This document shows, piece after piece, positions 16,100 to 30,961 of a DNA stretch of 64,000 nucleotides (its first letter is position 1; each line of letters begins with the position of its first letter). The translations under genes were made by a program, and so were the position numbers. The notes beneath the pieces were generated by a model that was given only the letters and a program-made list of their open reading frames with translations, had not been told where the DNA came from and made no database searches. Origin of the DNA: Micromonospora sp. MP36 (GTDB taxonomy: Bacteria; Actinomycetota; Actinomycetes; Mycobacteriales; Micromonosporaceae). The stretch covers positions 62,001-126,000 of the forward strand of contig NZ_VSFA01000005.1 of NCBI RefSeq assembly GCF_008119785.1, given 5' to 3'.

Positions 16100-17404
16100 T
16101 CAGGCGGGGACGGGGGCGAGCCGTTCGGCGGGCCGGTCCGTCTCGTCCGCGTCCACGAGGTCCCGCTTGCCGGCCGAGTCGTACGCCGTCCGGTCGAGGG
16201 TGCCCTCGCGGGCGGCCACGATGGTCGGCACGAGCGCCTGGCCGGCCACGTTGGTGGCGGTGCGGATCATGTCCAGGATCGGGTCGATGGCCAGCAGCAG
16301 GCCGGCGCCGGCCAGCGGCAGGCCCAGCGTGCTCAGGGTCAGGGTGAGCATGACGATCGCACCGGTCAGACCCGCCGTGGCGGCCGAGCCGACCACCGAG
16401 ACGAAGGCGATCAGCAGGTAGTCGGTGACGCCCAGGTGCACCCCGAACACCTGCGCCACGAAGATCGCGGCCAGGGCCGGGTAGATGGCCGCGCAGCCGT
16501 CCATCTTCGTGGTGGCGCCGAACGGCACCGCGAAGGAGGCGTACTCGCGGGGGACGCCGAGCCGCTCGACCGAGCGCTGGGTCACCGGCATGGTGCCCAC
16601 CGAGGAGCGGGAGACGAAGGCCAGCTCGATGGCGGGCCAGGCGCCGGCGAAGAAGCGCAGCGGGTTGAGCCGGCCGGCGGCCACCAGCAGCAGCGGGTAG
16701 ACCACGAAGAGCACGATCGCGCAGCCGACGTAGACGGCGGTGGTGAACTTGGCGAGCGGGGCCAGCAGGTCCCAGCCGTACGAGGCGACGGCGTTGCCGA
16801 TCAGGCCGAGCGTGCCGATCGGGGCGAGCCGGATGACCCACCAGAGCGCCTTCTGCACGATGGCGAGCACCGAGCGGTTGAGCGCCACGAACGGCTCGGC
16901 GGCCTCACCGATCAGCAGGGCGGCGGCGCCGACCACCAGGGCGAGGAAGACGATCTGGAGGACGTTGCCCTCGACGAACGCGCCGACCGGGTTGGTCGGG
17001 ACGATGCCGGTGAGGAAGTCGGTCCAGGAGCCGGTCTTCTTCGGCGCGGCGGCGCCGGCCAGGTCGAGGGTGACCCCCTTGCCCGGGTCGGTGAGCAGGC
17101 CGAGGCCGATGCCGAGGCTCACCGCGATCAGTGCGGTGATGCCGAACCAGAGCAGGGTCTTCAGCGCCAGCCGGGCGGCGTTGGCCACGCCGCGCAGGCT
17201 GACCACGCTGACCACGATGGCGGTGAAGACCAGCGGGGGCACGGCCAGCTTGAGGAGCTGGACGAAGAGGTGGCCGACGGTGTCGAGGGTGCTGGTCAGC
17301 CAGGCGAGGTCGTTGGCGCGGGCGAGGAAGCCGAGCGCCACGCCGAGCACGAGGCCGAGCAGGATCTGCACGGAGAAAGGGAACTTGCGCAGGGCGGAGG
17401 CCAT
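16100..17404 (-). CDS. DAACS-family dicarboxylate/amino acid:cation symporter
   Basis: This is a 434-aa glutamate-transporter-fold symporter. The family marks are the serine-rich loop SRSSVGTMP (265-273), the MDGCAA motif in TM7 (301-306, where related proteins have NMDG), and DPILDMIRTATNVAG in TM8 (374-388). Relatives carry C4-dicarboxylates, glutamate/aspartate or cystine (TcyP type). A 29-codon cysteine-containing leader ORF precedes it by 43 nt. Such leaders are associated with sulfur genes, so cystine or another organosulfur substrate is plausible. The substrate is inference. A strong hairpin follows the gene. Confidence 0.9.
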   Translation of the reverse strand: MASALRKFPFSVQILLGLVLGVALGFLARANDLAWLTSTLDTVGHLFVQLLKLAVPPLVFTAIVVSVVSLRGVANAARLALKTLLWFGITALIAVSLGIGLGLLTDPGKGVTLDLAGAAAPKKTGSWTDFLTGIVPTNPVGAFVEGNVLQIVFLALVVGAAALLIGEAAEPFVALNRSVLAIVQKALWWVIRLAPIGTLGLIGNAVASYGWDLLAPLAKFTTAVYVGCAIVLFVVYPLLLVAAGRLNPLRFFAGAWPAIELAFVSRSSVGTMPVTQRSVERLGVPREYASFAVPFGATTKMDGCAAIYPALAAIFVAQVFGVHLGVTDYLLIAFVSVVGSAATAGLTGAIVMLTLTLSTLGLPLAGAGLLLAIDPILDMIRTATNVAGQALVPTIVAAREGTLDRTAYDSAGKRDLVDADETDRPAERLAPVPA

Positions 17405-17607: not shown

Positions 17608-19023
17608 TCAGCCCGGCAGCACCTTCCCGGGATTCATCAGCCCGCGCGGGTCGAACAGCCGCTTGAGCCCCCGCATCAGCTCCAGCTCGTGGCCGTCCTT
17701 GTAGTCGGCGATGATCTCCCGCTTCGCCTGCCCGAGCCCGTGCTCGGCGCTGATGCTCCCGTCGAACGCGCCGGCCGAGTCGTAGATGACGCGGGCGAGG
17801 GTCGCGGCGCGCGCCCGGAACTCGGCGTCGTCGCTGCCCTCGGGTTTGCTGAGGTTGTAGTGCAGGTTGCCGTCGCCGATGTGGCCGTACGTCACGATCC
17901 GGATGCCCGGGACGGCCTCCTCGAGTGCCCGGTCGGTGCGGGCCACGAACGCCGGGATGCGGCTGACCGGCACGCTGACGTCGTGCTTGAGGCTGGGGCC
18001 CTCGTGGTTCTGCGCCTCCGAGATGCCCTCGCGCAGCGCCCACAGGGCGGCGGCCTGCGCCGGGCCGGCGGCGACGACGCCGTCCACCACCACACCCTTC
18101 TCGAACGCCTCGCCCAGCGCCGACTCGATCACCTCGTCGAGGCCGGCGGCGGGCAGCGTGTCGCTGAGCTCCACCAGCGCGTACCAGGGCTGGCGGTCGC
18201 CGAGCGGGTCACGCGCGCCCGTCACGTGGCGCAGCACGAACTCCACACTCTGCCGGGACATGATCTCAAAGCCGGTCAGCCGGTCGCCGGCCAATTCCCG
18301 GAGCACCCCGATCAGCTCGACCGCCGCCTGCGGGTTCGGCAGGGCCACCCAGGCCGTCGCGCGGCTGCGGACCGCGGGAAAGAGCTTCAGCACGGCTGCG
18401 GTGATCACGCCGAGCGTGCCCTCCGAGCCGATGAACAGCTGCTTGAGGTCGTAGCCGGTGTTGTCCTTCCGCAGTCCGCGCAGCCCGTTCCAGATCCGCC
18501 CGTCCGGGAGCACGACCTCCAGCCCGAGGGTCAGGTCGCGCATCGTCCCGTAGCGGAGCACGCCGGTCCCGCCGGCGTTGGTCGCGAGGTTGCCGCCGAT
18601 CGTGCAGCTTCCCTCCGCGCCCAGCGAGAGCGGGAAGAGTTGGCCGGCGGCGGCAGCGGCCTCCTGCACCGACCGCAGGACCGCGCCGGCCTCCACCGTG
18701 ATGGTCTGGTTGGCAACGTCGAGGTCGCGGACGCGCCGCATCCGGGTCAGGGAGAGCACCACCTGACGGCCGGAGCGGTCCGGGACCGCCCCGCCGCACA
18801 GCCCCGTGTTGCCGCCCTGCGGGACCACCGCGACGCCCGCCTCGGCGCACCGCGCGACGACCGCGGCCACCTCCTCCGTCCGGCCCGGCCGCACGACCGC
18901 CGCGGCGGTGCCCGCGTACGCGGCCCGCCAGTCGCTGACGTAGCCGGCCAGGTCGGCCGGGTCGGTGAGCACGGCGGCGGGCCCGACCACCTGCCGCAGC
19001 CGGCCGATGAGGTCCGCGGTCAC
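17608..19023 (-). CDS. FAD-linked oxidoreductase (D-2-hydroxyglutarate/D-lactate dehydrogenase-like)
   Basis: This 471-aa protein oxidises a 2-hydroxyacid and passes electrons to an acceptor. The N-terminal FAD_binding_4 domain holds VVPQGGNTGLCGG (67-79) and LGAEGSCTIGGNLATNAGG. The C-terminal FAD-oxidase domain has GHIGDGNLHYN and SAEHGLGQAKR, typical of the D2HGDH/GlcD group. The GTG at 19023 overlaps the mqo stop by 4 nt (GTGA), so the two are coupled. With mqo it forms a two-gene unit under a promoter shared with the aldarate genes. D-2-hydroxyglutarate, giving 2-oxoglutarate, is a fitting but unproven substrate; D-lactate is the main alternative. Confidence 0.85.
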   Translation of the reverse strand: MTADLIGRLRQVVGPAAVLTDPADLAGYVSDWRAAYAGTAAAVVRPGRTEEVAAVVARCAEAGVAVVPQGGNTGLCGGAVPDRSGRQVVLSLTRMRRVRDLDVANQTITVEAGAVLRSVQEAAAAAGQLFPLSLGAEGSCTIGGNLATNAGGTGVLRYGTMRDLTLGLEVVLPDGRIWNGLRGLRKDNTGYDLKQLFIGSEGTLGVITAAVLKLFPAVRSRATAWVALPNPQAAVELIGVLRELAGDRLTGFEIMSRQSVEFVLRHVTGARDPLGDRQPWYALVELSDTLPAAGLDEVIESALGEAFEKGVVVDGVVAAGPAQAAALWALREGISEAQNHEGPSLKHDVSVPVSRIPAFVARTDRALEEAVPGIRIVTYGHIGDGNLHYNLSKPEGSDDAEFRARAATLARVIYDSAGAFDGSISAEHGLGQAKREIIADYKDGHELELMRGLKRLFDPRGLMNPGKVLPG

Positions 19024-20537
19024 GAGTGCTTCGCCCCCGTCGTGGTCACCGGCACCGGGCCGAGCACCCGGCGGGCGCGGGCCAGGGTGTCGCCGAGCCG
19101 GTCGGGGTCGAGCTGCCGCACCGTCTCGGTGGACGGGGCGAGCCGCTCCAGCCGTGGTCCCCACTCCGGCATCCGTTCGGGAAAGCTCGCGGCGAGCACG
19201 TCGAGCATGGTCGACGCGGCGGTCGAGGCGCCGGGCGAGGCGCCGAGCAGGGCTGCCAGGGAGCCACCTGCCGAGGTGACGATCTCGGTGCCGAAGCCCA
19301 CCATCGTGCCGCGACCGCCGGTCTTCTTGAGAATCTGCACCCGCTGACCGGCGGTCAGCAGCGTCCAGTCGTCGGCCCGCGCGGACGGCACGAACTGGCG
19401 TAGCGCGGCGGTCCGGGCGGCCGCCGACTGGGTGACCTGGCGGACGAGGTAGGCCACCAGCGAGCGGTTGTCCCGGGCGGCGGCCAGCAGCACCGCGAGG
19501 TTGCCAGGCCGGACCGAGCGCGGCAGGTCGGTCCACCGGCCGCGGGTGAGGAAGCGGGGGGAGAAGGCCGCGAACGGTCCGAAGAGCAGGCTCTCCCGCC
19601 CGTCCACGACGCGCAGGTCCAGGTGCGGCACCGAGATCGGCGGGGCGCCCGGCGCGGCGTGCCCGTACGCCTTGCCCCGGTGGGCGGCCACGAGCTCGGG
19701 CCGGTCGGTACGCAGGAACCGGCCACTGATCGGGAAGGCGCCGTACCGCCGGATCTCCGGGATCCGGGCCGACTGCAGCAGCGGCAGGGTCCCGCCCCCG
19801 GCCCCGACGAAGACGTACGGCGTCCGCAGCCGCCGGCGGTGCCCCGTCCGGCGGTCGCGGACCTGCACCAGCCAGGTGTTCCCGTGCCCGCGTAGGGACC
19901 TGACCTCCTGGCCGGTGCGTACGGTGCCGCCGCGTTCCCGCAGGGCCGACAGGAGTTGCCGGGTGAGGACGCCGAAGTCGACATCCGTGCCCTGTGTCGA
20001 GCGGGTGGCCGCCACGGGTTCGTCCCCGGTCCGGCCCCGGCATATCAGCGGCAGCCAGGCGGCGAGAGCGTCGGGGTCCTCGGTGAACTCGAGGTCGGCG
20101 AAGAGCGGATGGTCCCGCAGGGCCTCCCACCGGGCCCGCAGGTACGCCACGCCGGCCGCGCCGCGGCCGAAGCCCAGGTGCGGGACCGAGCGGACGAACG
20201 CCGCGGGCGGTCCGAGCACCCCCCGCTCCACCAGACGCGACCAGAACACCAGGGAGGAGACGAACTGCTCGCCGATCCGTACCGCGCTCGACGCGTCCAC
20301 CGTGCCGTCGGGACGGCGGGGCGTGTAGTTGAACTCGCAGAGCCCTGCGTGGCCCGTGCCGGCGTTGTGCCAGGCGCTCGAACTCTCGAGGCCGGCCTCG
20401 TCGAGCCGCTCGACGACCGCGATCCGCCAGTCCGGCTGCACCTCGCTCAGCAGCACGCCCAGGGTGGCGCTCATGATCCCGCCGCCAACGAGGACGGCGT
20501 CCCAGTCCTCGTCCGAGCCGCTCCTCGACACGATCAT
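19020..20537 (-). CDS. mqo: malate:quinone oxidoreductase
   Basis: Mqo is a peripheral-membrane FAD enzyme that oxidises L-malate to oxaloacetate and reduces quinone. The 505-aa product has the FAD dinucleotide motif LVGGGIMSATLG (16-27), the family stretch SSAWHNAGTGHAGLCEFNYTP and the C-terminal TMLDVL...FPERMPEW segment; length matches Mqo (~500 aa). The ATG at 20537 lies 6 nt after a TAGCGT -10, so the mRNA is probably leaderless. Its promoter contains the same elements as the tctC and kdgD promoters. This suggests that it is induced with aldarate catabolism to handle the extra TCA-cycle flux. Confidence 0.93.
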   Translation of the reverse strand: MIVSRSGSDEDWDAVLVGGGIMSATLGVLLSEVQPDWRIAVVERLDEAGLESSSAWHNAGTGHAGLCEFNYTPRRPDGTVDASSAVRIGEQFVSSLVFWSRLVERGVLGPPAAFVRSVPHLGFGRGAAGVAYLRARWEALRDHPLFADLEFTEDPDALAAWLPLICRGRTGDEPVAATRSTQGTDVDFGVLTRQLLSALRERGGTVRTGQEVRSLRGHGNTWLVQVRDRRTGHRRRLRTPYVFVGAGGGTLPLLQSARIPEIRRYGAFPISGRFLRTDRPELVAAHRGKAYGHAAPGAPPISVPHLDLRVVDGRESLLFGPFAAFSPRFLTRGRWTDLPRSVRPGNLAVLLAAARDNRSLVAYLVRQVTQSAAARTAALRQFVPSARADDWTLLTAGQRVQILKKTGGRGTMVGFGTEIVTSAGGSLAALLGASPGASTAASTMLDVLAASFPERMPEWGPRLERLAPSTETVRQLDPDRLGDTLARARRVLGPVPVTTTGAKHS

Positions 20538-20543
20538 GCCGCC

Positions 20544-20600
20544 ACGCTAGAAGCCCGCGACGATGCCTGTCCAAGTCCACCCGGGCATGGGTGAATACCT
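20544..20600 (-). promoter_or_regulatory. LysR-type promoter of mqo (shared regulon element, copy 1)
   Basis: Read on the minus strand: AGGTAT box (20595-20600), then TTGGAC -35 (20569-20574), AGGCAT, and TAGCGT -10 (20544-20549), with 19 nt between -35 and -10. The 38 nt at 20563-20600 match copy 3 (27697-27734) at 27 of 38 positions with identical spacing, and the 17 nt at 20563-20579 match at 16 of 17. Confidence 0.75.
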
Positions 20601-20635
20601 TCGCGGAATCGCGCTCCGAACCCGCGGGATGGCGA

Positions 20636-21568
20636 TCAGGTGCCGCCCAGCAGCACGGCGAGCCCGACGAGCACGGGCACGGACAGGACGGTGGTGAGCA
20701 GCACGGTGTCCCGGGCCAGCAGGGTGTCCCGGTCGTAGGACGAGGCGTAGACGAAGACGTTCTGCGCGGTCGGCAGGGCCGAGGTGACCGTGACCGCCAG
20801 CAACGCCACCCCCGAGAGGCCGGCGGCCCACCGACCGAGGGCGTAGGCCAGCGCCGGCTGGGCGAGGGTCTTCAGCGCCACGGCCAGCCACACCCGCGAT
20901 GCCCCGTCGCCGGACGCGGGACGTGGTGCCCCGTGCAGGCTCATCCCGTACGCCAGCAACGCGGCGGGCACTGCGAGGGCGGCGGTGAGCTCGATCGGCT
21001 GGAGCACCAGCGGCGGCAGCTTCAGGCCGGTGGCCGCGACGAGCACACCCAGGCCGCAACCCACCACGACCGGCGTACGGAGCGGCTGGGTGAGCAGCCG
21101 CCAGCGGGCTGGGGCGTCGCCTGCCGGCTGGGAGCCGGCCAGGACGGCCAGCCCGATGGGTGCCATGACCAGCACCTGGAACAGCAGCACCGGGGCCACG
21201 AACGACGCGTCCCCGAGGACGTAGGCCGCGATGGGTACGCCCAGGTTGCCCGCGTTGACGTAGCCCGAGGCGAGGCCGCCGACCGCCAGCGCGGCCGGCG
21301 CCGACCGCCAGCGCCACCGGGCCAGCGCCGCGTACAGCAGCGCGCTGAGCAGCGCGCTGCCGGCGGTGGCGACGAGGGCGGCCGACACGAGCTCCGCCGG
21401 ATCGGCCTTCGCCAGCGTGAGCAGCAGCAGTGCGGGCGTCGCCACGAAGTAGGACAACCGCGACAGCACGCCGCCGGCGCCGGGGCCCAGGATGCCGGCT
21501 CGGCCGACGATCCAGCCGACGGCGATCACCGCGACCAGGGCGGCGAAGCCGCCGATGACGGCGTTCAC
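20636..21568 (-). CDS. AEC-family transporter (auxin efflux carrier/malonate-malate permease type)
   Basis: This 310-aa protein has about ten hydrophobic helices and the family motif GYVNAGNLGVPIAAY in the middle. Bacterial AEC proteins carry small organic acids such as malate or malonate. It is the last gene of the minus-strand aldarate operon, 96 nt after the semialdehyde dehydrogenase. It may be a second carrier for aldarates or a carboxylate exporter that prevents product overload. The substrate is inferred only from this context. Confidence 0.85.
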   Translation of the reverse strand: MNAVIGGFAALVAVIAVGWIVGRAGILGPGAGGVLSRLSYFVATPALLLLTLAKADPAELVSAALVATAGSALLSALLYAALARWRWRSAPAALAVGGLASGYVNAGNLGVPIAAYVLGDASFVAPVLLFQVLVMAPIGLAVLAGSQPAGDAPARWRLLTQPLRTPVVVGCGLGVLVAATGLKLPPLVLQPIELTAALAVPAALLAYGMSLHGAPRPASGDGASRVWLAVALKTLAQPALAYALGRWAAGLSGVALLAVTVTSALPTAQNVFVYASSYDRDTLLARDTVLLTTVLSVPVLVGLAVLLGGT

Positions 21569-21664
21569 CCGGCGGTGTGCGCGGCCGTGCCGCTCATGCC
21601 GCGGCGGATCCGGCGTCCGCCGGCCGCCCCGCGGCGGCCGGCGGTGCGACGGCGGTCCGGATGG

Positions 21665-23179
21665 TCATCGGGGCAGCTCGAGAACGCCGTCGACCCGCCG
21701 CGGGATGGCGCGGTAGTCGTCGGCGAGCTCGGGCGGGAGCAGGTCGGCGGGGGCCCCCTGCCAGGTGACCGGGCGCAGGAACCGCCGGATCGCCGTGGTG
21801 CCCACGGAGGTGTGCTGGGTGTTGGTCGACGGCCACGGCCCACCGTGGTGCTGGGCCCAGGAAACGGCCACGCCGGTCGGGTAGGCGTCGTAGATCAGCC
21901 GACCGGCCCGCGGGCGCACCTGCTCGGAGACCGCCAGGGGCAGCTCCGTCTCGCCCTGGCCGCGCAGCACGGTCGCGGTCAGCGACGAGGGCATCCCGTC
22001 CAGCGCGGCGAACAGCTCGGCCGGACCGTCGTAGCGGGCCACCACCGACACCGGCCCGAAGCACTCCTCGGTGACCTGCGGCGGCAGCCCCCGCGCCGAC
22101 GTCGCCAGCAGCAGGGGCGCCGCCTCGAAGCCGGCACCCTCCGGCTCCGCACCGCGGGCCAGCACCGTGACGCCGGGCGCCGCGGCGAGGCCGCCGGCGA
22201 TCCGGTCGTACGCGGCGGCGATGCCCTCGTTGAGCAACACCGGAGCGCCGCTCGCCCGGACCGCCTCCGCCATGGCGTCGACCACCGCGTCGCCGTCCGG
22301 GCCGGCCGGCACGAACACCAGGCCGGGCTTGGTGCAGAACTGGCCGCCGCCGAGGGTGAAGGAGCCGACGAGTTCGCCGCCGATCGCCGACCCCCGCTCC
22401 GCGGCCGCCTGCGGCGTCACGACGACGGGGTTGAGGCTGCTGAGCTCACCGAAGAACGGCACCGGGTCGGGCCGCCGCTCGATGATCTGCAGCAGCGCCC
22501 GCCCGCCGGTGACCGAACCGGTGAAGCCCACGGCCCGGATCGCCGGGTGCGCGACGAGGTCCGCACCGGCCTGCACGCCGTGGACCAGGCCCAGCGTGCC
22601 GTCGGGTGCGCCGGCCTTGCCGGCGGCGGTCGCCAGGATGTCGAACACCAGCTGCGACGTGGCGGGGTGGGAACCATGCGCCTTGACGACCACCGGGCAG
22701 CCGGCCGCGAGCGCCGAGGCGGTGTCGCCGCCGGGCACGGAGAAGGCCAGCGGGAAGTTGCTGGCGCCGAAGACCGCGACCGGGCCGATCGGGACGAGCA
22801 TCCGGCGCAGGTCGGGGCGGGGACCCATCGGGGTGTCGCCGGCGTGGTCGATCGTCGCCTCGAGGTAGCTGCCCTCGTCCAGCACCTCGGCGAACAGGCG
22901 CAGCTGGTAGCAGGTGCGGGTGAGCTCGCCGGTCAGCCGGGTCGGGCCGAGCGCCGTCTCCCGGTCGGCGACGGCGACGACGTCCTCGCGCCGGGCCTCG
23001 AGCGCGTCGGCGAGGGTACGCAGCAGCGCCGCCCGCCCGCTGCGGCCGAGCGCCTCCAGGCCGGGGGCGGCGGCGAGGGCGGCCGCGCAGAGCCGGTCCA
23101 CCTCGGCGGTGGTCGTCTCCTGGGCGACGACCTCGACCGCCTGGCCGGTCCGGGGGTCGATGCTGACGACGTCGGACAT
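21665..23179 (-). CDS. 2,5-dioxopentanoate (alpha-ketoglutarate semialdehyde) dehydrogenase
   Basis: This NAD(P)-dependent aldehyde dehydrogenase oxidises 2,5-dioxopentanoate to 2-oxoglutarate, the last step of aldarate breakdown. The 504-aa protein has FGASNFPLAFS (Asn141), the general base in FFGELSSLNP (Glu245) and the nucleophile in LGGGQFCTKPG (Cys282). GGGQFCTKPG is typical of the KGSADH-II/III group rather than of ordinary ALDHs. The ATG at 23179 has a GGAGGT ribosome-binding site. It follows the talarate/galactarate dehydratase by 23 nt in the same operon, which supports the substrate. Confidence 0.92.
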   Translation of the reverse strand: MSDVVSIDPRTGQAVEVVAQETTTAEVDRLCAAALAAAPGLEALGRSGRAALLRTLADALEARREDVVAVADRETALGPTRLTGELTRTCYQLRLFAEVLDEGSYLEATIDHAGDTPMGPRPDLRRMLVPIGPVAVFGASNFPLAFSVPGGDTASALAAGCPVVVKAHGSHPATSQLVFDILATAAGKAGAPDGTLGLVHGVQAGADLVAHPAIRAVGFTGSVTGGRALLQIIERRPDPVPFFGELSSLNPVVVTPQAAAERGSAIGGELVGSFTLGGGQFCTKPGLVFVPAGPDGDAVVDAMAEAVRASGAPVLLNEGIAAAYDRIAGGLAAAPGVTVLARGAEPEGAGFEAAPLLLATSARGLPPQVTEECFGPVSVVARYDGPAELFAALDGMPSSLTATVLRGQGETELPLAVSEQVRPRAGRLIYDAYPTGVAVSWAQHHGGPWPSTNTQHTSVGTTAIRRFLRPVTWQGAPADLLPPELADDYRAIPRRVDGVLELPR

Positions 23180-23202
23180 GCGGATTACCTCCAAGGTGTG
23201 GT

Positions 23203-24354
23203 TCAGCGGGCGGCGGTGACGTGGACCCGGTCCACGGTCCAGGCGCGGGCCTGCTCGCTCAGCGTGACGCCCAGGCCCGGCCGGTCGGAAAGGTACATGC
23301 GCCCGCCGCGCGTCTCCAGGCGCTCGTTGAACAGCGGGTACAGCCAGTCGAAGTGCTCCACCCACGGCTCGTGCGGGTAGGCGGCCGCCAGGTGCACGTG
23401 GATCTCCATGGCGAAGTGCGGCGCCAGTTGCAGGTTGCTGTGGTCGGCCAGCGTGGCGAGCTTGAGGAACTGGGTGATGCCGCCGATGCGGGGGGCGTCG
23501 GGCTGGAGGATGTCCACCGCGCCGGCGCGGATCAGCTCGTAGTGCTCCGCGACGCTGGTCAGCATCTCGCCGGTGGCCACCGCGGTGTCCAGCGACCGGG
23601 CGAGCTGGGCGTGCCCCTCGGCGTCGTACGCGTCCAGCGGCTCCTCGATCCACACCAGCCCGAACTCCTCCAGCGCCCGGCCGACCCGCATGGCGGTTGG
23701 CCGGTCCCACTGCTGGTTGGCGTCGACCATGAACGGCACGGCCTCGCCGAGGTGTTCCCGGACGGCGCGGACCCGGCGCAGGTCCTCCGCCGAGTCGGGC
23801 TGGCCCACCTTGATCTTGATGCCGCCGACGCCCGACTCCAGGGTCCGCGTCGCATTCTCCAGCACCTGCTCGATCGGCTCGTGCAGGAAGCCCCCGGAGG
23901 TGTTGTAGCAGCGGACCGAGTCGCGGTGGGCGCCCAGCAGCTTGGCCAGCGGCAGCCCGGCCCGCTTCGCCTTGAGGTCCCAGAGCGCGACGTCGATCGC
24001 GGCCAGCGCCTGGGTGGCCGCGCCGCTGCGCCCGACCGAGGCGCCGGCCCAGACGAGCTTGGTCCAGAGCCGGCCGATGTCGCTGGGGTCCTCACCGATC
24101 AGGTCGGGGGCGACCTCCCGGGCGTGCGCGAACTGGGCCGGCCCGCCGGCCCGCTTGGAGTAGCTGAAGCCGACGCCCTCGAAGCCGGCCTCGGTGCGGA
24201 TCTCGGCGAAGAGGAACGCCACCTCCGTCATCGGCCGCTGCCGGCCGGTGAGCACCTTCGCGTCGCTGATTCCGGTGGGCAGCGGCAGGGTGACCGACGA
24301 GAGGGTCACCGACTCGATCCGGTCGAGCACGGCGGAAGGGTTGGCGCTGGTCAT
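23203..24354 (-). CDS. L-talarate/galactarate dehydratase (enolase superfamily)
   Basis: This enzyme dehydrates galactarate (and L-talarate) to 5-dehydro-4-deoxyglucarate. The 383-aa protein resembles Salmonella TalrD/GalrD closely throughout, including SDAKVLTGRQ, LWAGASVGRSG-like (VWAGASVGRSG) and YNTSGGFLH. Catalytic Lys182 is in GIKIKVG and the His base in APHFAME (His313). The metal ligands are Asp211 (VDANQQ), Glu237 (IEEP) and Glu263 (ATGEM). All expected active-site residues are present. It lies between gudD and the semialdehyde dehydrogenase, so galactarate and glucarate enter the same route. Confidence 0.93.
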   Translation of the reverse strand: MTSANPSAVLDRIESVTLSSVTLPLPTGISDAKVLTGRQRPMTEVAFLFAEIRTEAGFEGVGFSYSKRAGGPAQFAHAREVAPDLIGEDPSDIGRLWTKLVWAGASVGRSGAATQALAAIDVALWDLKAKRAGLPLAKLLGAHRDSVRCYNTSGGFLHEPIEQVLENATRTLESGVGGIKIKVGQPDSAEDLRRVRAVREHLGEAVPFMVDANQQWDRPTAMRVGRALEEFGLVWIEEPLDAYDAEGHAQLARSLDTAVATGEMLTSVAEHYELIRAGAVDILQPDAPRIGGITQFLKLATLADHSNLQLAPHFAMEIHVHLAAAYPHEPWVEHFDWLYPLFNERLETRGGRMYLSDRPGLGVTLSEQARAWTVDRVHVTAAR

Positions 24355-24385
24355 GTCTCTCCTTGCTCGGGCGTCAGGGCGGTCG

Positions 24386-25717
24386 TCAGCGGACCAGGCA
24401 GGGGCGCTTGGGGTCGAACGCCCAGCCGGGGACGAGGTACTTCATCGCGACCGCGTCGTCGCGGGCGCCGAGGCCGTGCGCCAGGTACAGCTCGTGCGCG
24501 GCCGCCAGGGCGTCGCGGTCCAGCTCGATCCCCAGTCCGGGCGCGGTGGGCACGGCGATCCGCCCGTCCCGGATGCGCAGCGGCGCCCGGGTGAGCGACT
24601 GCCCGTCCTGCCAGATCCAGTGCGTGTCGAGGGCGGTGATGTCGCCGGGGGCGGCCGCGCCCACGTGGGTGAACATCGCCAGCGAGATGTCGAAGTGGTT
24701 GTTGGAGTGCGAGCCCCAGGTGAGGCCGAACTCGTGGCACAGCTGGGCGACCCGGACCGAGCCGCGCATCGTCCAGAAGTGCGGATCGGCCAGGGGAATG
24801 TCGACCGCGTTCGACCGGACCGCGTGGGCCAGCTGGCGCCAGTCGGTGGCGATCATGTTGGTGGCCGTCGGCAGGCCGGTGCGCCGCCGGAACTCCGCCA
24901 TCACCTCGCGACCGGAGAATCCGCCCTCGGCGCCGACCGGATCCTCCGCGTACGCCAGCACACCGTGCAGGTCGCGGCAGAGCTCGACGGCCTCGGCCAG
25001 CAGCCAGCCGCCGTTCGGATCGAGCGTGATGCGGGCGTCCGGGAACCGCGCGGCGAGGGCGCGGACCGCGGCGACTTCCTGCTCGCCGGCCAGCACGCCG
25101 CCCTTGAGCTTGAAGTCGGTGAACCCGTAGCGGGCGCGCGCCGCCTCGGCCAGCGCCACGATCGCGTCGGGGGTCAGCGCCGGTTCCCGGCGTAGCCGTT
25201 CCCAGTCGTCGGCGGGGTCGGGTTCGGCGAGGTAGGGCAGGTCGGTGCAGCGGCGGTCACCGACGTAGAAGAGGTAGCCGAGCATCGGCACGGCGTCGCG
25301 TTGCTGCCCGTCGCCGAGCAGCTCCGCGACGGGCACGCCGAGGTGCTGGCCGAGCAGGTCCAGCAGCGCGGACTCCAGCGCGGTCACCGCGTGGACCGTG
25401 GTCCGCAGGTCGAAGGTCTGCAGCCCGCGCCCGCCGGCGTCGCGGTCGGCGAACGCGTCGCCGACCGCGCGCAGCAGCCGGGCGTACCGGGAGATCGGCT
25501 GCCCGACCAGCAACGGGCCGGCCTCCTCGATGGTGCGGCGGATCGCCTCGCCGCCGGGCACCTCGCCGACACCGATCCGGCCCTCGCTGTCCGTGACGAT
25601 GGCGATGTTGCGGGTGAAGAAGGGCCCGTGCGCGCCGCTGAGGTTGAGCAGCATGCTGTCGTGCCCCGCGACGGGCACCGCCTCGACACGGGCCACGGTC
25701 GGGGTGCGGCCGGTCAT
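24386..25717 (-). CDS. gudD: glucarate dehydratase
   Basis: GudD dehydrates D-glucarate (and L-idarate) to 5-dehydro-4-deoxyglucarate. The 443-aa protein has the enolase-superfamily active site: Lys205 in DFKLKGG, His337 in [10 protein letters not shown], and metal ligands Asp233 (TLDPNG), Glu258 (YAEDP) and Asn287 (ATNMIATDW). The N-terminus [20 protein letters not shown] is typical of GudD. ATG codons at 25723 and 25717 are possible; GAGAGG directly before the first is better spaced for the second, so 25717 is used. It sits 28 nt after kdgD and 31 nt before the galactarate dehydratase. Confidence 0.95.
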
Positions 25718-25745
25718 CGCCATCCTCTCGGTGTCGGTGAGCTGG

Positions 25746-26660
25746 TCAGGAGATCTTCTCGATCAGGGTGGTCAGCTCGGCGAGCTCGGTCTCGGTCAGG
25801 TCGGCCAGCGGGGGCCGGACCGGGCCGCCGTCGCGGCCGACCGCGGTCAGGCCGGCCTTGATGATGGAGACGGCGTACCCCTTGGCCCGGTCCCGGATGT
25901 CCAGATAGGGGATCACGAAGTCGGTGAGCATCCGGTAGACCGCCGGCCGGTCCTGGGCGCGGACGGCCGCGTAGAACCGGAGCGCGAACTCGGGCAGGAA
26001 GTTGTACAGCGCCGAGGAGTAGGTGCTCACCCCGAGTTGCAGCAGCGGCAGGGCGAACGTCTCGGCCGTCGGCAGCCCGCCGATGTAGATGAGCCGGTCG
26101 CCGACCCGGGCGTACGTGCGGGTCATCCGCTCGATGTCGCCGATGCCGTCCTTGAGCCCGATCAGGTTCGGGTTGCGGTCGGCGATCTCGGCGACGGTGG
26201 CGTCGGTGAGCACCGCGTTCGCCCGGCTGTAGACGATGACGCCCAGGTCGGTCGCGCGGCACACGGCGCTGATGTGCTCGACCAAGCCGTGCTGGCTGGC
26301 CTCGGTGAGGTACGGCGGGAACAGCAGCACGCCGTCGGCGCCGGCGGCCTGGGCGGCCTGTGCCTGGGCGACGGAGAGGGCGGTGCCGCCGGTCGCTGGC
26401 GCGATGACCGGGACCTTGCCCGCCACCTCGTCGACGGCGGCCCGGACGACCCGGTCCAGCTCGGCGGAGGTGAGCGAGAAGCCCTCGCCGGTGCCGCCCG
26501 CGGCGAACAGGCCGGCGACGTCGAAGCTCGCCTGCCAGGCCAGGTGCTCGCGGTACCGGGCCTCGTCGAACTGCAGGTCGGCGTCGAAGTGGGTGACGGG
26601 GAAGGAGAGCAGGCCCGACTTCAGGCGGTCAGCGAGAGCGTCCGGGGATAGCAGCGTCAC
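25746..26660 (-). CDS. kdgD: 5-dehydro-4-deoxyglucarate dehydratase (decarboxylating)
   Basis: KdgD converts 5-dehydro-4-deoxyglucarate to 2,5-dioxopentanoate with loss of CO2 and water. The 304-aa DHDPS-fold protein has [11 protein letters not shown] (54-64), the conserved Tyr144 (VIVYSRA) and the Schiff-base Lys170 (LIGLKDG). The GTG at 26660 gives the family's usual length of about 303 aa. A longer start at 26732 is rejected because it falls inside the predicted -10 box (26731-26736). The product feeds the semialdehyde dehydrogenase in the same operon. This is the first gene of the minus-strand aldarate operon. Confidence 0.93.
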
Positions 26661-26730
26661 GGTGATCGTGTCCTTGGGTCCAGCGGGTCCGCGCCGCAGC
26701 CGATCAAGGGCGCGGACGGTGGTCGGGGTC

Positions 26731-26796
26731 ACCGTAGGAACCGTTGACGATGCATGTCCAAGAGTACTTCCGCATCGAGCGATGCCCGGGAGGTAT
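26731..26796 (-). promoter_or_regulatory. LysR-type promoter of the kdgD operon (shared regulon element, copy 2)
   Basis: On the minus strand TTGGAC (26756-26761), then ATGCAT, 19 nt in all to TACGGT (26731-26736), matches the mqo and tctC promoters. Upstream is a TTGATACCT box (about 26788-26796), the inverted form of the AGGTATCAA box of copy 3 and about 21 nt further out. A GCATCG-AG-CGATGC palindrome lies between them. The transcript would start near 26724, giving a leader of about 64 nt. Confidence 0.65.
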
Positions 26797-27689
26797 CAAG
26801 AGTCGCCGGCCCGCCGCTCCAGCACCTCGAGCGCCCGCCACAGGGCGGGGTTCTTCGATTCCCTGGCCCACAGCAGGTGGAGCTCCGCCGGCTTGGGCGT
26901 GGGTGTCTCCAGCCGGACGAACGCCACCCCGTCGATGGGCAGCCGCGCGGCGGACTCGGGGACGAAGGCGACGCCACGACCGGCCGCCACGAGCCAGAGC
27001 ATGGTCAGCACCTGACTCACCGTGTGCACGGTGTTCTCCGCGGCGATGGGTACCACGCCTGCGACCAGGTCGTAGAAGTACTTCGCCCTGGTCGGCGAAT
27101 GCATGACCACCGGCTCGCCCGCCAGGTCCGCGGCCGTCGCCGGCCGGCCCAGCTCCAGCAGCCGATGGCCCACCGGAGCGGCGACGAGCAGCGCCTCCCG
27201 GTGCAGCAGCCGCGAGCCGAAGGCCTCCTCGTCGAAGGGTGGGCGGGCCAGTCCGAGGTCGACCTCCTCCTTGAGCAGGCCGGCGACCTGCTCGCGGGTC
27301 ACCATCTCGGCCAGCTCGACGGCGACGTCGGGCAGCTCGCGGCTCAGCTCGTTGAGCAGTTCGCCGAGGACCCCGTACGCCGAGGCGGCGGTGAACCCGA
27401 TCCGGATCATCCCGCTGGCCCCGGACGACACCCGTCTGGCCAGCTCGGGAGCGGTGTCGGCGAGAATGAGCAGTCGGCGGGCCTCGACCAGGAACGCCGC
27501 GCCGGCCGCGGTGAGGGTGACCCGCCGGTTGTCCCGCTCCAGCAGCTGGGCGCCCACGATCCGCTCCAGCTTCTGGATCTGCCGACTCAAGGGGGGCTGC
27601 GTCATCTGCAGCCGGGCGGCCGCGCGACCGAAGTGCAGCTCCTCGGCCACCGTTACGAAGCCGCGAAGTTGCTCCAACGTAAAGGCCAT
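26796..27689 (-). CDS. LysR-family transcriptional regulator of the aldarate genes
   Basis: This 297-aa regulator has an N-terminal LysR HTH (FVTVAEELHFGRAAARLQMTQPPLSRQIQKLE is the region, residues 11-42) and a periplasmic-binding-like inducer domain (GMIRIGFTAASAYGVLGELL onward). It lies between the kdgD operon and the divergent tctCBA operon. The shared element (27697-27734) begins 7 nt upstream of its start, so it is probably autorepressed. The likely inducer is an aldarate or a pathway intermediate. Control of mqo, 6 kb away, is suggested by the matching promoter element. Confidence 0.92.
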   Translation of the reverse strand: MAFTLEQLRGFVTVAEELHFGRAAARLQMTQPPLSRQIQKLERIVGAQLLERDNRRVTLTAAGAAFLVEARRLLILADTAPELARRVSSGASGMIRIGFTAASAYGVLGELLNELSRELPDVAVELAEMVTREQVAGLLKEEVDLGLARPPFDEEAFGSRLLHREALLVAAPVGHRLLELGRPATAADLAGEPVVMHSPTRAKYFYDLVAGVVPIAAENTVHTVSQVLTMLWLVAAGRGVAFVPESAARLPIDGVAFVRLETPTPKPAELHLLWARESKNPALWRALEVLERRAGDS

Positions 27690-27696
27690 GTCAAGA

Positions 27697-27753
27697 AGGT
27701 ATCAATTGATGCTCCATTGGATTTGGACAGGCATGAGCCCACGTTCCTAGGCT
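27697..27753 (+). promoter_or_regulatory. LysR-type promoter of tctCBA (shared regulon element, copy 3)
   Basis: In order there are AGGTATCAATTGAT (27697-27710, with the palindrome ATCAATTGAT), TTGGAC -35 (27723-27728), AGGCAT, and TAGGCT -10 (27748-27753). The -35 to -10 spacing is 19 nt. The element also abuts the divergent LysR start codon. Confidence 0.75.
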
Positions 27754-27828: not shown

Positions 27829-28836
27829 ATGACGATCAAGCGCGTGCGCCGGTGGGCGACGGCGGGTGCCGGGTTCGCCCTGGCCCTCTCGCTCGCCGCC
27901 TGCGGCGGCAATGTCGGCGGCGGCGGCTCCGACGACGCAAAGTTCCCGGGGAAGTCCCCGATCACCATCCTGGTCGGGCAGGACCCGGGCGGCAGCACCG
28001 ACCTCATCGCGCGGGCGCTCGCCGACAAGGTCTCCAACGACCTCGGCGTCCCGGTGACCGTCGAGAACAAGCCCGGCGCCAACGGCGGCCTGGCCGCCAA
28101 GGAGTTGGCCGGCAAGAAGGCCGACGGGCACACCCTGATGGTCTACAACGGCAGCCTCGCCTACATCACGCCGCTGGCCGTCGCCGCGGGCCAGGCACCC
28201 GACATGGCCGACTACGACATCGTCACCGGCATCAGCCAGGACGACTACGTGATGGTCACGGCCGCCAAGTCCGGCTTCAAGACCGTCGACGACCTGGCCA
28301 AGGCCGGCCGCCCGATCACCTTCGGCACCACCGGCGTCGGCACCGGCAGCCAGCTGTCGCAGGAGCTGCTGTTCCGCCAGGCGAACATTCCGGCCAAGGC
28401 CGTTCCCTTCAAGGGCGGGTCGCCCACCCTCACCGCGGTGCTCGGCGGCCAGGTGGACGTCGGCTCGGTCCAGCTGGGCGAGGCCATCGAGCAGGTCAAG
28501 GCCGGCAAGCTCACCCCGATCGTGACGTTCGCCGAGAAGCGCCCGACGTACCTGCCCGACACCCCGACCGCGGTGGAGGCCGGCCACGACGTGCCCGTGC
28601 AGCAGTCGCGGGCGATCTTCGCCCCGAAGGGCACGCCGAAGGAGGTCATCGATGCCCTGCGCGCCTCGTTCCAGAAGGCGTTCCAGGCCGATGCCTACAA
28701 GAAGTTCAACGAGGACAACCTGCTCACCCCCAACGAGGTGGACGGCGAGGAACTGCGCAAGCAGTGGACCGCGAACCTGGACAAGTACCGCGCTGTCGTC
28801 CAGAAGTACAACATCCAGCTCGGCGAGGCGAAGTGA
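27829..28836 (+). CDS. tctC: tripartite tricarboxylate transporter substrate-binding lipoprotein
   Basis: TctC-type proteins (Bug family) capture a carboxylate outside the membrane and deliver it to the TctAB permease. The 335-aa product has a lipoprotein signal with lipobox LSLAAC (lipidated Cys25) and the Bug fold, with VGQDPGGSTDLIARAL and VENKPGANGGLAAKEL near the ligand loops. The ATG at 27829 has AGAGGAG upstream. Because it is divergent from the LysR regulator and near the aldarate enzymes, glucarate or galactarate is the likely ligand rather than citrate; this is inference. Confidence 0.92.
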   Translation: MTIKRVRRWATAGAGFALALSLAACGGNVGGGGSDDAKFPGKSPITILVGQDPGGSTDLIARALADKVSNDLGVPVTVENKPGANGGLAAKELAGKKADGHTLMVYNGSLAYITPLAVAAGQAPDMADYDIVTGISQDDYVMVTAAKSGFKTVDDLAKAGRPITFGTTGVGTGSQLSQELLFRQANIPAKAVPFKGGSPTLTAVLGGQVDVGSVQLGEAIEQVKAGKLTPIVTFAEKRPTYLPDTPTAVEAGHDVPVQQSRAIFAPKGTPKEVIDALRASFQKAFQADAYKKFNEDNLLTPNEVDGEELRKQWTANLDKYRAVVQKYNIQLGEAK

Positions 28837-29423
28837 GTTCGGTCCACCACGGAACACCGGGCAGCCCCGGCGGCGACACCGCCGCCGGGGCCACCCCCCG
28901 GGGCGGTGATTCCGCCGGCGAGGAGCTCAGCCTCGAGGAGGCGATCCACCGCGTCGAGGAAGCCGAGCACGAGGGCCGTCCGCCCGCGGCCGGGACGCTC
29001 AGCAACACCCTGACCGCCGCGGCGGTCGTGGCGCTCGGCATCGCCGCGCTCATCGGCTCCAGCAGACTCGGCCTCGGGACCGCTCGCAGCCCCGAGGCCG
29101 GCACCTGGCCGCTACTGGTCAGCGGCGCGCTCGTCCTGCTGGGCCTGGGCCTGCTCGCCACGGCCCGGCGCACCACTGACGCCGAGCGGTTCTCCCGGGC
29201 CAGCCTGCTGGTCCTCGGCGGCCTGGCCACCATGGTCGTCTTCGTCGCGGTCATCAGCGTGATCGGCTTCGAGATCCCGGCCGCCCTGCTCGCCTTCGTC
29301 TGGCTGCGGGTCCTGGGCCGGGAGGGCTGGCGCACCTCGATCCTCACGAGCCTGGGTGTGGTGGTCGCCTTCTATCTCCTGTTCGTGGCGGCCTTCTCGG
29401 TCCCCATCCCGCACCTGTTCTAG
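28833..29423 (+). CDS. tctB: tripartite tricarboxylate transporter small membrane subunit
   Basis: The 196-aa protein has four predicted membrane helices after an unusually long, acidic N-terminal tail of about 55 residues (GEELSLEEAIHRVEEAEHEG). TctB is the small permease subunit. The GTG at 28833 overlaps the tctC stop (GTGA), showing coupling. The tail is not part of the usual TctB core, and its role is unknown. Confidence 0.88.
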   Translation: MSSVHHGTPGSPGGDTAAGATPRGGDSAGEELSLEEAIHRVEEAEHEGRPPAAGTLSNTLTAAAVVALGIAALIGSSRLGLGTARSPEAGTWPLLVSGALVLLGLGLLATARRTTDAERFSRASLLVLGGLATMVVFVAVISVIGFEIPAALLAFVWLRVLGREGWRTSILTSLGVVVAFYLLFVAAFSVPIPHLF

Positions 29424-29431
29424 GAGGGTCC

Positions 29432-30961
29432 GTGGATTTCGCCCCGGTGCTCCACGGCTTCGGCGTCGTACTGGAGCCGACCAACCTGCTCTACTGCCTG
29501 ATCGGCGTCGTCATCGGCATGCTGATCGGCGTCCTGCCCGGCCTCGGCCCAGCAGCGACCATCGCGATCCTGCTGCCGGTCACCTTCGGCATCGAGCCGG
29601 TGACCGCGGTGATCATGCTCGCCGGCATCTTCTACGGCGCCCAGTACGGCGGCACCATCACCTCCGTCCTTCTGCGGCTCCCCGGCGAGGCGTCCTCCGT
29701 GGTGACCGTCTTTGACGGCCACGCGATGGCCCGCCAGGGCCGGGCCGGCACCGCACTCGGCATCGCCGCCATCGGCTCCTTCGTCGGCGGCACCGTCTCG
29801 ATCATCGCCCTGACCCTCGTCGCCCCCCTGGTGGCGGGCTTCGCCCTGGACTTCGGCCCGCCCGAGTACACGGCCCTGGCCCTGCTCGGCATTCTGCTGG
29901 TCGCCACGATCAGCAGCGGCGGACGCCTCAAGGCGGTCATCGCCGCGTGCGTCGGCCTGCTGCTCGCCACCGTCGGCCAGGACGGCTTCACGGGCGCCGA
30001 GCGGTTCACCTTCGACAACCTGTCGCTGGCCGACGGCCTGGATTTCGTCCCGATCGCCATGGGACTCTTCGGCCTCGGCGAGATCCTCTACAACCTCGAG
30101 GAACGCCATCGGGCCGCGCAGGCCCCGGTCGCCGTGGCAAACGTGTGGCCGTCGCGGGCCGACCTGCGTCAGTCGTCCGGGGCGATCGGCCGTGGCTCCC
30201 TGGTGGGCTTCGTGCTGGGCATCCTGCCCGGCGGCGGCGCCACCCTCTCCTCGCTGGCCGCCTACGCGCTTGAGAAGCGCCGCGCCAAGCACCCCGAGCG
30301 GTTTGGCAAGGGCGCCGTCGAAGGCGTTGCCGCGCCGGAGACGGCCAACAACGCTGCCGCCACGTCGTCGTTCATCCCACTGCTTACCCTCGGCATCCCG
30401 GCCAACGCGACCATGGCGGTGATCTTCGGCGCGCTGCTGATCCAGGGCGTGACCCCCGGCCCGCAGTTGGTCGAGCAGGACCCCGACCTGTTCTGGGGCG
30501 TGGTCAACTCGATGTACATCGGCAACATCCTGCTGCTGATCATGAGCATCCCGCTGGTCGGCCTGTTCGTGAAGATCCTCAAGGTGCGGGCCACGATCCT
30601 CGCCCCCGTCACGGTATTGATCACGCTGATCGGCGTCTACACGGTGCGAAACAGCGTCTTCGACATTGGTCTGGTGATCGTCTTCGGCGCCCTCGGCTAC
30701 CTGATGAAGAAGCTCGGCTTCGATCCGGGCCCGCTGGTGCTGGCCTTCGTGCTGGGCTCGCTGCTGGAGGAATCCCTGCGCCGCTCGCTGCTGATCTTCG
30801 ACGGCGACGCGACCGGCTTCTTCACCCGGCCGATCTCCGGGACCCTGTTCGTCGCGTTCCTGCTCGTGGCCCTGCTGCCGCCGCTGCGCACCGCCCTTCG
30901 CCGGCGCCGGCCGGCGGCCGTCCCGTCGGAGACCGCAACTCAGGACAAGGAGCTCGTGTGA
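29432..30961 (+). CDS. tctA: tripartite tricarboxylate transporter large permease subunit
   Basis: This 509-aa, roughly 12-helix protein forms the transport channel. Two family repeats are visible: IGVLPGLGPAATIAILLP near the N-terminus and LGILPGGGATLSSLAAYALE in the second half. They are the inverted-repeat substrate-binding loops of TctA. The GTG at 29432 follows GGAGGGT. It begins 8 nt after tctB and overlaps the downstream universal stress gene by 4 nt. Confidence 0.93.
   Translation: MDFAPVLHGFGVVLEPTNLLYCLIGVVIGMLIGVLPGLGPAATIAILLPVTFGIEPVTAVIMLAGIFYGAQYGGTITSVLLRLPGEASSVVTVFDGHAMARQGRAGTALGIAAIGSFVGGTVSIIALTLVAPLVAGFALDFGPPEYTALALLGILLVATISSGGRLKAVIAACVGLLLATVGQDGFTGAERFTFDNLSLADGLDFVPIAMGLFGLGEILYNLEERHRAAQAPVAVANVWPSRADLRQSSGAIGRGSLVGFVLGILPGGGATLSSLAAYALEKRRAKHPERFGKGAVEGVAAPETANNAAATSSFIPLLTLGIPANATMAVIFGALLIQGVTPGPQLVEQDPDLFWGVVNSMYIGNILLLIMSIPLVGLFVKILKVRATILAPVTVLITLIGVYTVRNSVFDIGLVIVFGALGYLMKKLGFDPGPLVLAFVLGSLLEESLRRSLLIFDGDATGFFTRPISGTLFVAFLLVALLPPLRTALRRRRPAAVPSETATQDKELV

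Follow-up and report, generated by a model that had tools for sequence, protein, structure and literature searches.

A predicted LysR-type operator shared by the kdgD, tctC and mqo promoters of an aldarate gene cluster in Micromonospora sp. MP36

Introduction

In the stretch of 64,000 nucleotides of Micromonospora sp. MP36 analyzed here (contig NZ_VSFA01000005.1, positions 62,001 to 126,000; hereafter the window), a gene for a LysR-type regulator lies between kdgD, which heads a run of genes for the breakdown of aldarates, and tctC, which is transcribed in the opposite direction. The promoters of both genes resemble that of mqo, which encodes a flavoprotein of the malate:quinone oxidoreductase (Mqo) family. 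This raises the question of whether the three promoters are controlled by the regulator encoded among them. The comparisons presented below make it highly probable that all three are targets of this LysR protein through the mechanism proposed here.

Results and Discussion

One composite element at three promoters

The promoters of mqo, kdgD and tctC carry, in register, an element that reads GYAT-N6-ATGC-N10-TTGGACANGCAT-N13-TANNNT toward the gene (Table 1), and this composite can be read as an operator of the LysR type with a -10 at its downstream end. The original prediction, made from the letters of the window, had stated that the three promoters are alike, and all three elements are found where it placed them. 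Some of its details had to be amended. The GCAT that follows TTGGAC is present and begins 2 nt, not 3, past it, and the stretches 20563-20600 and 27697-27734, said to agree at 27 of 38 positions, are indeed similar, with a corrected count of 28/38. The AGGTAT box was described as inverted and displaced at kdgD; ATACCT does occur there, yet it overlaps the lysR stop codon and is found within 30 nt upstream of only 3/45 kdgD sites in the loci described below, and it was rejected as an element of this promoter. Instead, kdgD has its own in-register dyad, GCATCGCTCGATGC, separated by N10 from TTGGAC as at mqo and tctC. The AGGTAT box at tctC is where it was said to be, and it overlaps the opposite-strand TANNNT-N6-ATG promoter of lysR. 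TTGGAC was also considered as a plain -35. Given that 19 nt separate it from the -10 and that it belongs to a longer conserved block, it is better read as part of the activation half of the operator than as a free-standing -35.

It is clear that the three promoters do share this element, and to a degree well beyond what chance would give. Exact TTGGACANGCAT has three copies in the whole genome (9,167,385 bases, 339 contigs), all at these promoters. With up to two mismatches it is found six times in the window against 6.0 expected, which is no excess, and with up to one mismatch it has 27 matches genome-wide, fewer than the 46 of a reversed control pattern. The 24 further one-mismatch 12-mers are, therefore, background, and around them (loci L004-L027) no pair of query genes was found. 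When ATGC-N10 is added to TTGGACANGCAT, the window contains three matches with up to three mismatches, all of them exact, against 0.42 expected. Genome-wide, where the original prediction had proposed to check the sites with a matrix, a 21-base composite with up to three mismatches returns only these three (control 0). There is no fourth site at this tolerance that would indicate a wider regulon in this genome, weaker sites not having been searched genome-wide. A scoring matrix trained on 83 distinct sites flanking lysR, and on no mqo site, gives 82.2 for tctC and 75.7 for kdgD, both of which are in the training set, and 49.1 for mqo, which is not. The best non-site position in the window scores -25.7.

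Regulator and sites across genomes

The lysR loci compared (n = 47) comprise the window, 31 named loci and 15 from genomes of the family. According to the record titles, loci of this type span Micromonospora, Geodermatophilus, Blastococcus, Modestobacter, Saccharothrix, Pseudonocardia and Nocardiopsis; the LysR of L058 is 93% identical to that of the window. By the matrix, a site precedes kdgD in 45/45 loci and tctC in 38/39, the exception being L075, counts that are partly circular because the matrix was built from those very sites. Scores above 20 are reached at 90 positions of the 47 loci, and the highest among all others (1,946,204) is 16.3. These 90 are 38 tctC sites, 45 kdgD sites, five mqo sites, one glcD site and one site behind lysR in L088, a locus that lacks kdgD; the mqo sites, being outside the training, score 34-52.

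The family was surveyed in 300 genomes, taking as a site ATGC-N10-TTGGACANGCAT with at most one mismatch and as the LysR cut E<=1e-75. A site is matched in 36 of them. Of these 36, 16 have a pair of sites on opposite strands no more than about 1.1 kb apart, and exactly these 16 of the 300 encode the LysR (Fisher p 7e-27, without kinship correction). This match depends on the cut used and does not amount to 16 independent events, given the kinship of the genomes and the chance that the cluster travels as a unit. The 20 genomes with a match and no LysR at this cut have scattered matches; the loci of 15 were examined, not every match, and G112, G057, G053, G078 and G058 were left out. Elsewhere in the phylum, 7/345 genomes match the site, and kdgD, lysR, tctC or gudD adjoins it in four (G408, G331, G373, G620); one of the three matches in G331 has no such neighbor, and in the other three genomes no queried gene is adjacent. 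The matching distribution of LysR and paired sites in the family, together with the fixed positions on either side of lysR, strongly supports that this LysR controls kdgD and tctC, as the original prediction had proposed.

Related sites are also seen next to other regulators or without one. In L030, L042 and L160, kdgD is divergent from a more distant LysR (45-48%) and has a related site, in the variant form TTGGACAGGTAT in L030 and L042, which suggests a wider family of such switches. L094 and L095 have an exact site between divergent tctC and kdgD and a weaker site that faces kdgD, and no lysR was found in their 18 kb.

Operator architecture and proposed mechanism

The dyad GYAT-N6-ATGC is found in 38/38 tctC, 44/45 kdgD and 4/5 mqo sites, TTGGACANGCAT in 37/38, 39/45 and 5/5, and TANNNT at its fixed place in 36/38, 43/45 and 4/5, respectively. 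An upstream dyad and a half that overlaps the -35 region are, therefore, both present, as in LysR operators, with distances that follow from a putative transcription start placed 7 nt after the -10. With this start, the dyad would be centered at about -54 and TTGGACANGCAT would span about -37 to -26, which fits the layout outlined in the accessible part of one account of LysR regulators, with a recognition site near -65 and an activation site over the -35/-10 (PMC8407307).

The tctC-side operator appears to serve lysR as well. In 44/47 loci, 6 nt separate a TANNNT from the lysR start codon, and in 45/47 from the start of the match, whereas each of the remaining 99 offsets upstream of lysR has it in 0.05 loci on average; the exceptions are L083, which reads ATCATG, and L085 and L102, which have no motif there. 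From this position it follows that the predicted -10 of lysR, on the other strand, coincides with the AGGTATC arm of the tctC-side dyad. TANNNT-N6 is kept in 9/9 loci without the tctC-side site. This arrangement suggests that the lysR mRNA is leaderless and that the regulator is self-repressed, probably because the tctC-side dyad covers the lysR promoter. The mqo mRNA looks leaderless too, given that the predicted -10 lies 6-7 nt before the putative start codon.

We propose that the LysR encoded between kdgD and tctC would target all three promoters by binding the upstream dyad GYAT-N6-ATGC and the downstream activation half TTGGACANGCAT. The inducer would probably be an aldarate or an intermediate of the pathway. 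Once induced, LysR would activate the kdgD operon, whose products would convert aldarate to 2-oxoglutarate, as well as tctCBA, the genes of the importer. It would also activate the mqo-glcD unit of this genome. On the tctC-side dyad it would repress lysR itself.

The mqo branch

The inclusion of mqo in the regulon, also put forward by the original prediction, has support here and in a few related genomes and is not general, given that the site is found at 5/19 of the lysR loci with a cluster mqo (the window, L058, L090, and L060 and L062 of Geodermatophilus). When the regions upstream of mqo are compared between the Micromonospora-type and the Geodermatophilus loci, conservation is mostly inside the element and the start. 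Among the 14 loci without the site, 12 have mqo 5-113 bp behind the gene of the AEC-family transporter on the same strand, as measured between match ends. The two genes are close (82-102 bp) also in those Micromonospora-type loci that carry the mqo site, namely the window, L058 and L090, and readthrough is, therefore, possible in these as well.

Other genomes show what becomes of the site when one of the partners is missing. In G141, no mqo passes the cut used, remnants of its start and of an inner stretch being visible by eye, and an exact site is retained that now faces glcD. G297 has neither mqo nor a third site, and its glcD adjoins the aldehyde dehydrogenase gene. G233 and G264 have mqo without this LysR and no kdgD in their 18 kb stretches, and their elements are damaged, with a 1-bp insertion in the dyad of G233 and changes of ATGC to AAAC and of GCAT to ACAT in G264; TTGGACAG and CTAGCGTG are kept in both. 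The presence of the switch, in some species, at the gene of an unusual cousin of Mqo hints at a tie between sugar-diacid breakdown and the respiratory chain.

In L089 (10175-10310), an mqo remnant seen by eye lies between an intact operator and glcD, and its leftover short frame overlaps the glcD start and possibly couples translation to it.

The cluster Mqo as a separate paralogue

The family models label the cluster Mqo plain malate:quinone oxidoreductase. Besides its Pfam match (Table 1), it reaches 629.9 bits with TIGR01320 (cut-off 549.95) and exceeds the cut-offs of PRK05257.2-1 and PRK05257.3-2, the remaining Mqo models of that search being below theirs; with the L-lactate dehydrogenase (quinone) model NF040844 it obtains 461 of 915 bits, below the cut-off. 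Mqo proteins at E<=1e-100 occur in only 4/300 family genomes. Among 24 lysR genomes searched, 15 have Mqo at E<=1e-60, and 13 of the 24 have both a cluster Mqo, 69-80% identical to that of the window, and a second Mqo at 52-56%. In the 345 other genomes of the phylum, Mqo is found in 18, at 45-53% identity, and no value falls within the cluster-type range. The 18 cluster Mqo proteins form one clade with 100/100 support and a stem of 0.82 changes per column. At the second-type mqo loci the site is found in 0/14 with up to four mismatches, a weak contrast given that the same search finds it in only 3/14 cluster-type loci.

The cluster proteins also differ in individual residues. Position 96 is Arg in 32/33 other actinobacterial Mqo and Leu in 18/18 cluster Mqo, and A65G, L69F, V124G, M301I, G324A, L413V and I427L are likewise consistent against the 33, which makes eight positions. 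In the predicted model (mean predicted local distance difference test score, pLDDT, of 81.2), residue 96 is in helix 83-104, and residues 65 and 69 are in helix 64-70, where confidence is low (mean pLDDT 53 for residues 61-70). The only solved chain matched by the cluster Mqo is 9dm1. Given the separate clade and the loss of Arg96, malate is at most a putative substrate of the cluster Mqo, which may not be a malate oxidase. Rather tentatively, this protein could have diverged into a 2-hydroxy-dicarboxylate:quinone oxidoreductase with a new specificity, such as for L-2-hydroxyglutarate or an aldarate-derived hydroxyacid, which with its D-2-hydroxyglutarate/D-malate-type neighbor would form a quinone-linked branch for both enantiomers, switched on by the aldarate LysR.

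Alternative explanations

Several observations speak against the control proposed here, in addition to the circularity and kinship mentioned above. With the strict pattern and up to two mismatches, the loci examined have the same layout and the kdgD site of L083 is missed. G250 and G006 carry a variant site at kdgD next to a LysR of 48%, and in G098 and G084 an exact site separates tctC from kdgD, no lysR being found in the 18 kb around it or, at E<=1e-75, anywhere in the genome. G233 keeps an exact ATGC-N10-TTGGACANGCAT, at mqo, without this LysR, and TTGGAC is also kept in two genomes that lack it. There is no T-N11-A box common to the site classes, the best column pair being present in only 55% of 88 sites; within a single class it reaches 82-84%, in differing registers and outside the dyad. 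This box is usual and not universal, given that T-N10-A and T-N9-A are also listed for LysR sites in the accessible text of PMC8407307. As for mqo, the branch is narrow, L090 has ATGT for ATGC, L062 has a 12-nt spacing to the -10, and L061 (gap of 918 bp) and L064 (620 bp) have neither the mqo site nor a short gap behind the AEC gene.

The element could instead be the promoter class of one alternative sigma factor, given that it ends in TANNNT at near-fixed spacing, that TTGGAC resembles a -35, and that TTGGACAG and CTAGCGTG persist in G233 and G264, both without this LysR. This is very improbable: there are only three exact copies in 9.17 Mb, the conserved dyad is farther upstream than a sigma factor normally reads, and the paired sites flank this lysR and track it across the 300 genomes. 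Readthrough raises a narrower objection, namely that LysR acts directly on kdgD and tctC and that the copy of the site at mqo is vestigial or else weak and without function, with mqo expressed by readthrough from the aldarate operon. The 12 of 14 site-less loci with mqo close behind AEC would agree with this, as would the likewise short gap in the three Micromonospora-type loci that have the site and the fact that the mqo site scores lowest of the three in the window. Nonetheless, the mqo site is present in five loci from two lineages (the window, L058 and L090; L060 and L062), it is retained in G141 after the decay of mqo, and the distance from the -10 to the mqo start is held at 6-7 nt, all of which makes this objection unlikely to be correct. 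It is similarly hard to favor a general malate or tricarboxylic acid cycle function for the mqo unit, merely placed beside the aldarate operon. The strong Pfam match, the TIGR01320 score above the cut-off and the DctA-like carrier next to the unit are what such a function would lead one to expect; standing against it are the rarity of Mqo in the family, the second Mqo in 13/24 lysR genomes, the clade that the cluster proteins form and, as a weak contrast, the second-type loci without the site.

Comparison with known systems

A search of the literature, covering titles and the first lines of abstracts of the top results, returned no LysR aldarate regulon in these bacteria and no link between aldarates and mqo, the colon-less phrase "malate quinone oxidoreductase" probably missing the usual spelling. 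CdaR of Escherichia coli belongs to another family than LysR. Its regulon, described in the part of the source available as covering galactarate, glucarate and glycerate (PMC10204090), is alike in that one regulator governs the use of aldarates, and it is the regulator that differs here. In Halomonas, according to the accessible text of PMC5507952, aldarate genes and TctABC, a predicted galactarate/glucarate uptake system, are in the reconstructed regulon of GguR. The two regulons are alike in placing aldarate breakdown genes and TctABC under one regulator; GguR is of the GntR family, whereas the one described here would be a LysR regulon, actinobacterial, and would add an Mqo paralogue and a D-2-hydroxyglutarate-dehydrogenase-like enzyme. 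Two further systems were ruled out as prior descriptions on the basis of the portions available: the Acinetobacter glucarate cluster has a regulator named FadR, with the LysR there belonging to the carnitine cluster (PMC9162365), and the LysR PcaQ is concerned with protocatechuate (PMC4495286).

With respect to LysR regulators that have a divergent catabolic target, as outlined in PMC8407307, the system has in common a LysR protein, a composite site of about 50-60 bp, promoter overlap, a divergent target and probable self-repression. It is unlike typical systems in its dyad GYAT-N6-ATGC without a shared T-N11-A, in a lysR that looks leaderless, and in having sites before the operons on either side and, in some species, a further one some 6 kb away at mqo. 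The link to mqo had been put forward as new. LysR-type control of an mqo gene is, however, already known in outline from BsrA of Pseudomonas aeruginosa, a LysR-type protein that, in the accessible part of the same source, binds 765 regions, has mqoA among its targets and lowers its expression (PMC8407307); here, by comparison, the regulator would be local and have three strong sites, and the Mqo concerned is a diverged paralogue. Relative to the literature searched, what appears to be new is this form of LysR operator, the actinobacterial regulon and the aldarate-linked Mqo paralogue. The predictions thus offer a defined candidate operator and regulator for aldarate use in several actinobacterial groups. 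A lead for a new quinone-linked enzyme is the Mqo paralogue, which accompanies the genes for breaking down sugar diacids and no longer has a residue that other Mqo retain.

Genes of the cluster and related loci

The genes on the minus strand form an operon-like run of kdgD, glucarate dehydratase, L-talarate/galactarate dehydratase and aldehyde dehydrogenase, followed by AEC, mqo, the GlcD-like gene and the DctA-like gene; tctC, tctB and tctA are transcribed opposite to it (Table 1). Judging from family assignments, the gene set from aldarate to 2-oxoglutarate would be complete, with dehydratases, KdgD and a semialdehyde dehydrogenase, the last assigned to the Aldedh level only. Among the matches listed for the aldehyde dehydrogenase, no NCBIfam model reaches its cut-off, and from its place in the pathway its substrate is probably 2-oxoglutarate semialdehyde. 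The longest open reading frame of kdgD starts at 26732, inside the -10, and the TIGR03249 match begins at residue 32 of this long frame.

The neighbor of mqo, called a 2-hydroxyacid dehydrogenase by the original prediction, is closest to D-2-hydroxyglutarate dehydrogenases. Given this and the diverged nature of the Mqo paralogue, the malate half of the proposed link is uncertain. One of the solved structures closest to this neighbor, 3pm9, is the template, according to the text available, for a model of the D-2-hydroxyglutarate dehydrogenase of P. aeruginosa, which also oxidizes D-malate (PMC12756731). Two weaker GlcD-like proteins (31-37% identity) are encoded elsewhere in the genome.

Table 1. 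Positions in the window of the predicted promoter elements and of the genes of the cluster
Feature	Position	Strand	Remarks
mqo operator-promoter (predicted)	20544-20602	-	dyad GTATTCACCCATGC 20598-20585; TTGGACAGGCAT 20574-20563; -10 TAGCGT 20549-20544
kdgD operator-promoter (predicted)	26731-26789	-	dyad GCATCGCTCGATGC 26785-26772; TTGGACATGCAT 26761-26750; -10 TACGGT 26736-26731
tctC operator-promoter (predicted)	27695-27753	+	dyad GTATCAATTGATGC 27699-27712; TTGGACAGGCAT 27723-27734; -10 TAGGCT 27748-27753
lysR -10 TACCTT (predicted)	27696-27701	-	6 nt before ATG; overlaps tctC operator dyad
LysR-type regulator, 297 aa	26796-27689	-	Pfam HTH_1 and LysR_substrate
kdgD (5-dehydro-4-deoxyglucarate dehydratase)	25746-26660	-	NCBIfam TIGR03249 above cut-off; Pfam DHDPS
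Glucarate dehydratase	24386-25723	-	NCBIfam TIGR03247, 821.3 bits, just below cut-off 828.7
L-talarate/galactarate dehydratase	23203-24354	-	NCBIfam NF047820, 702.5 bits, cut-off 500
Aldehyde dehydrogenase	21665-23179	-	Pfam Aldedh; closest solved structure 1eyy
AEC-family membrane transporter	20636-21568	-	Pfam Mem_trans
Mqo-family flavoprotein, cluster paralogue	19020-20537	-	Pfam Mqo 625.6 bits; separate clade, 100/100
GlcD/D-2-hydroxyglutarate dehydrogenase-like FAD enzyme	17608-19023	-	4-nt overlap with mqo end; closest solved structures 3pm9 and human D2HGDH 6lpn
Dicarboxylate symporter, DctA-like	16100-17404	-	Pfam SDF; downstream; possibly on the same transcript
tctC, tripartite tricarboxylate transporter binding protein	27829-28836	+	Pfam TctC
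tctB region	28837-29423	+	Pfam TctB match 29016-29411
tctA	29432-30961	+	Pfam TctA, 534.2 bits

Gene content varies among the related loci. L061 (11977-13227) and L064 (12079-13311) have a second glucarate-dehydratase-like gene (41-42% identity) between kdgD and gudD. In the three loci examined for it, an open reading frame of 287-320 aa that is ATP-grasp-like by eye lies between the aldehyde dehydrogenase and AEC genes (L060, 16080-17042; L065, 16066-16929; L070, 16040-16903). The record of L070 is labeled "UNVERIFIED_ORG: Bacillus sp. AZ43"; its cluster resembles those of Blastococcus, and the record is probably mislabeled.

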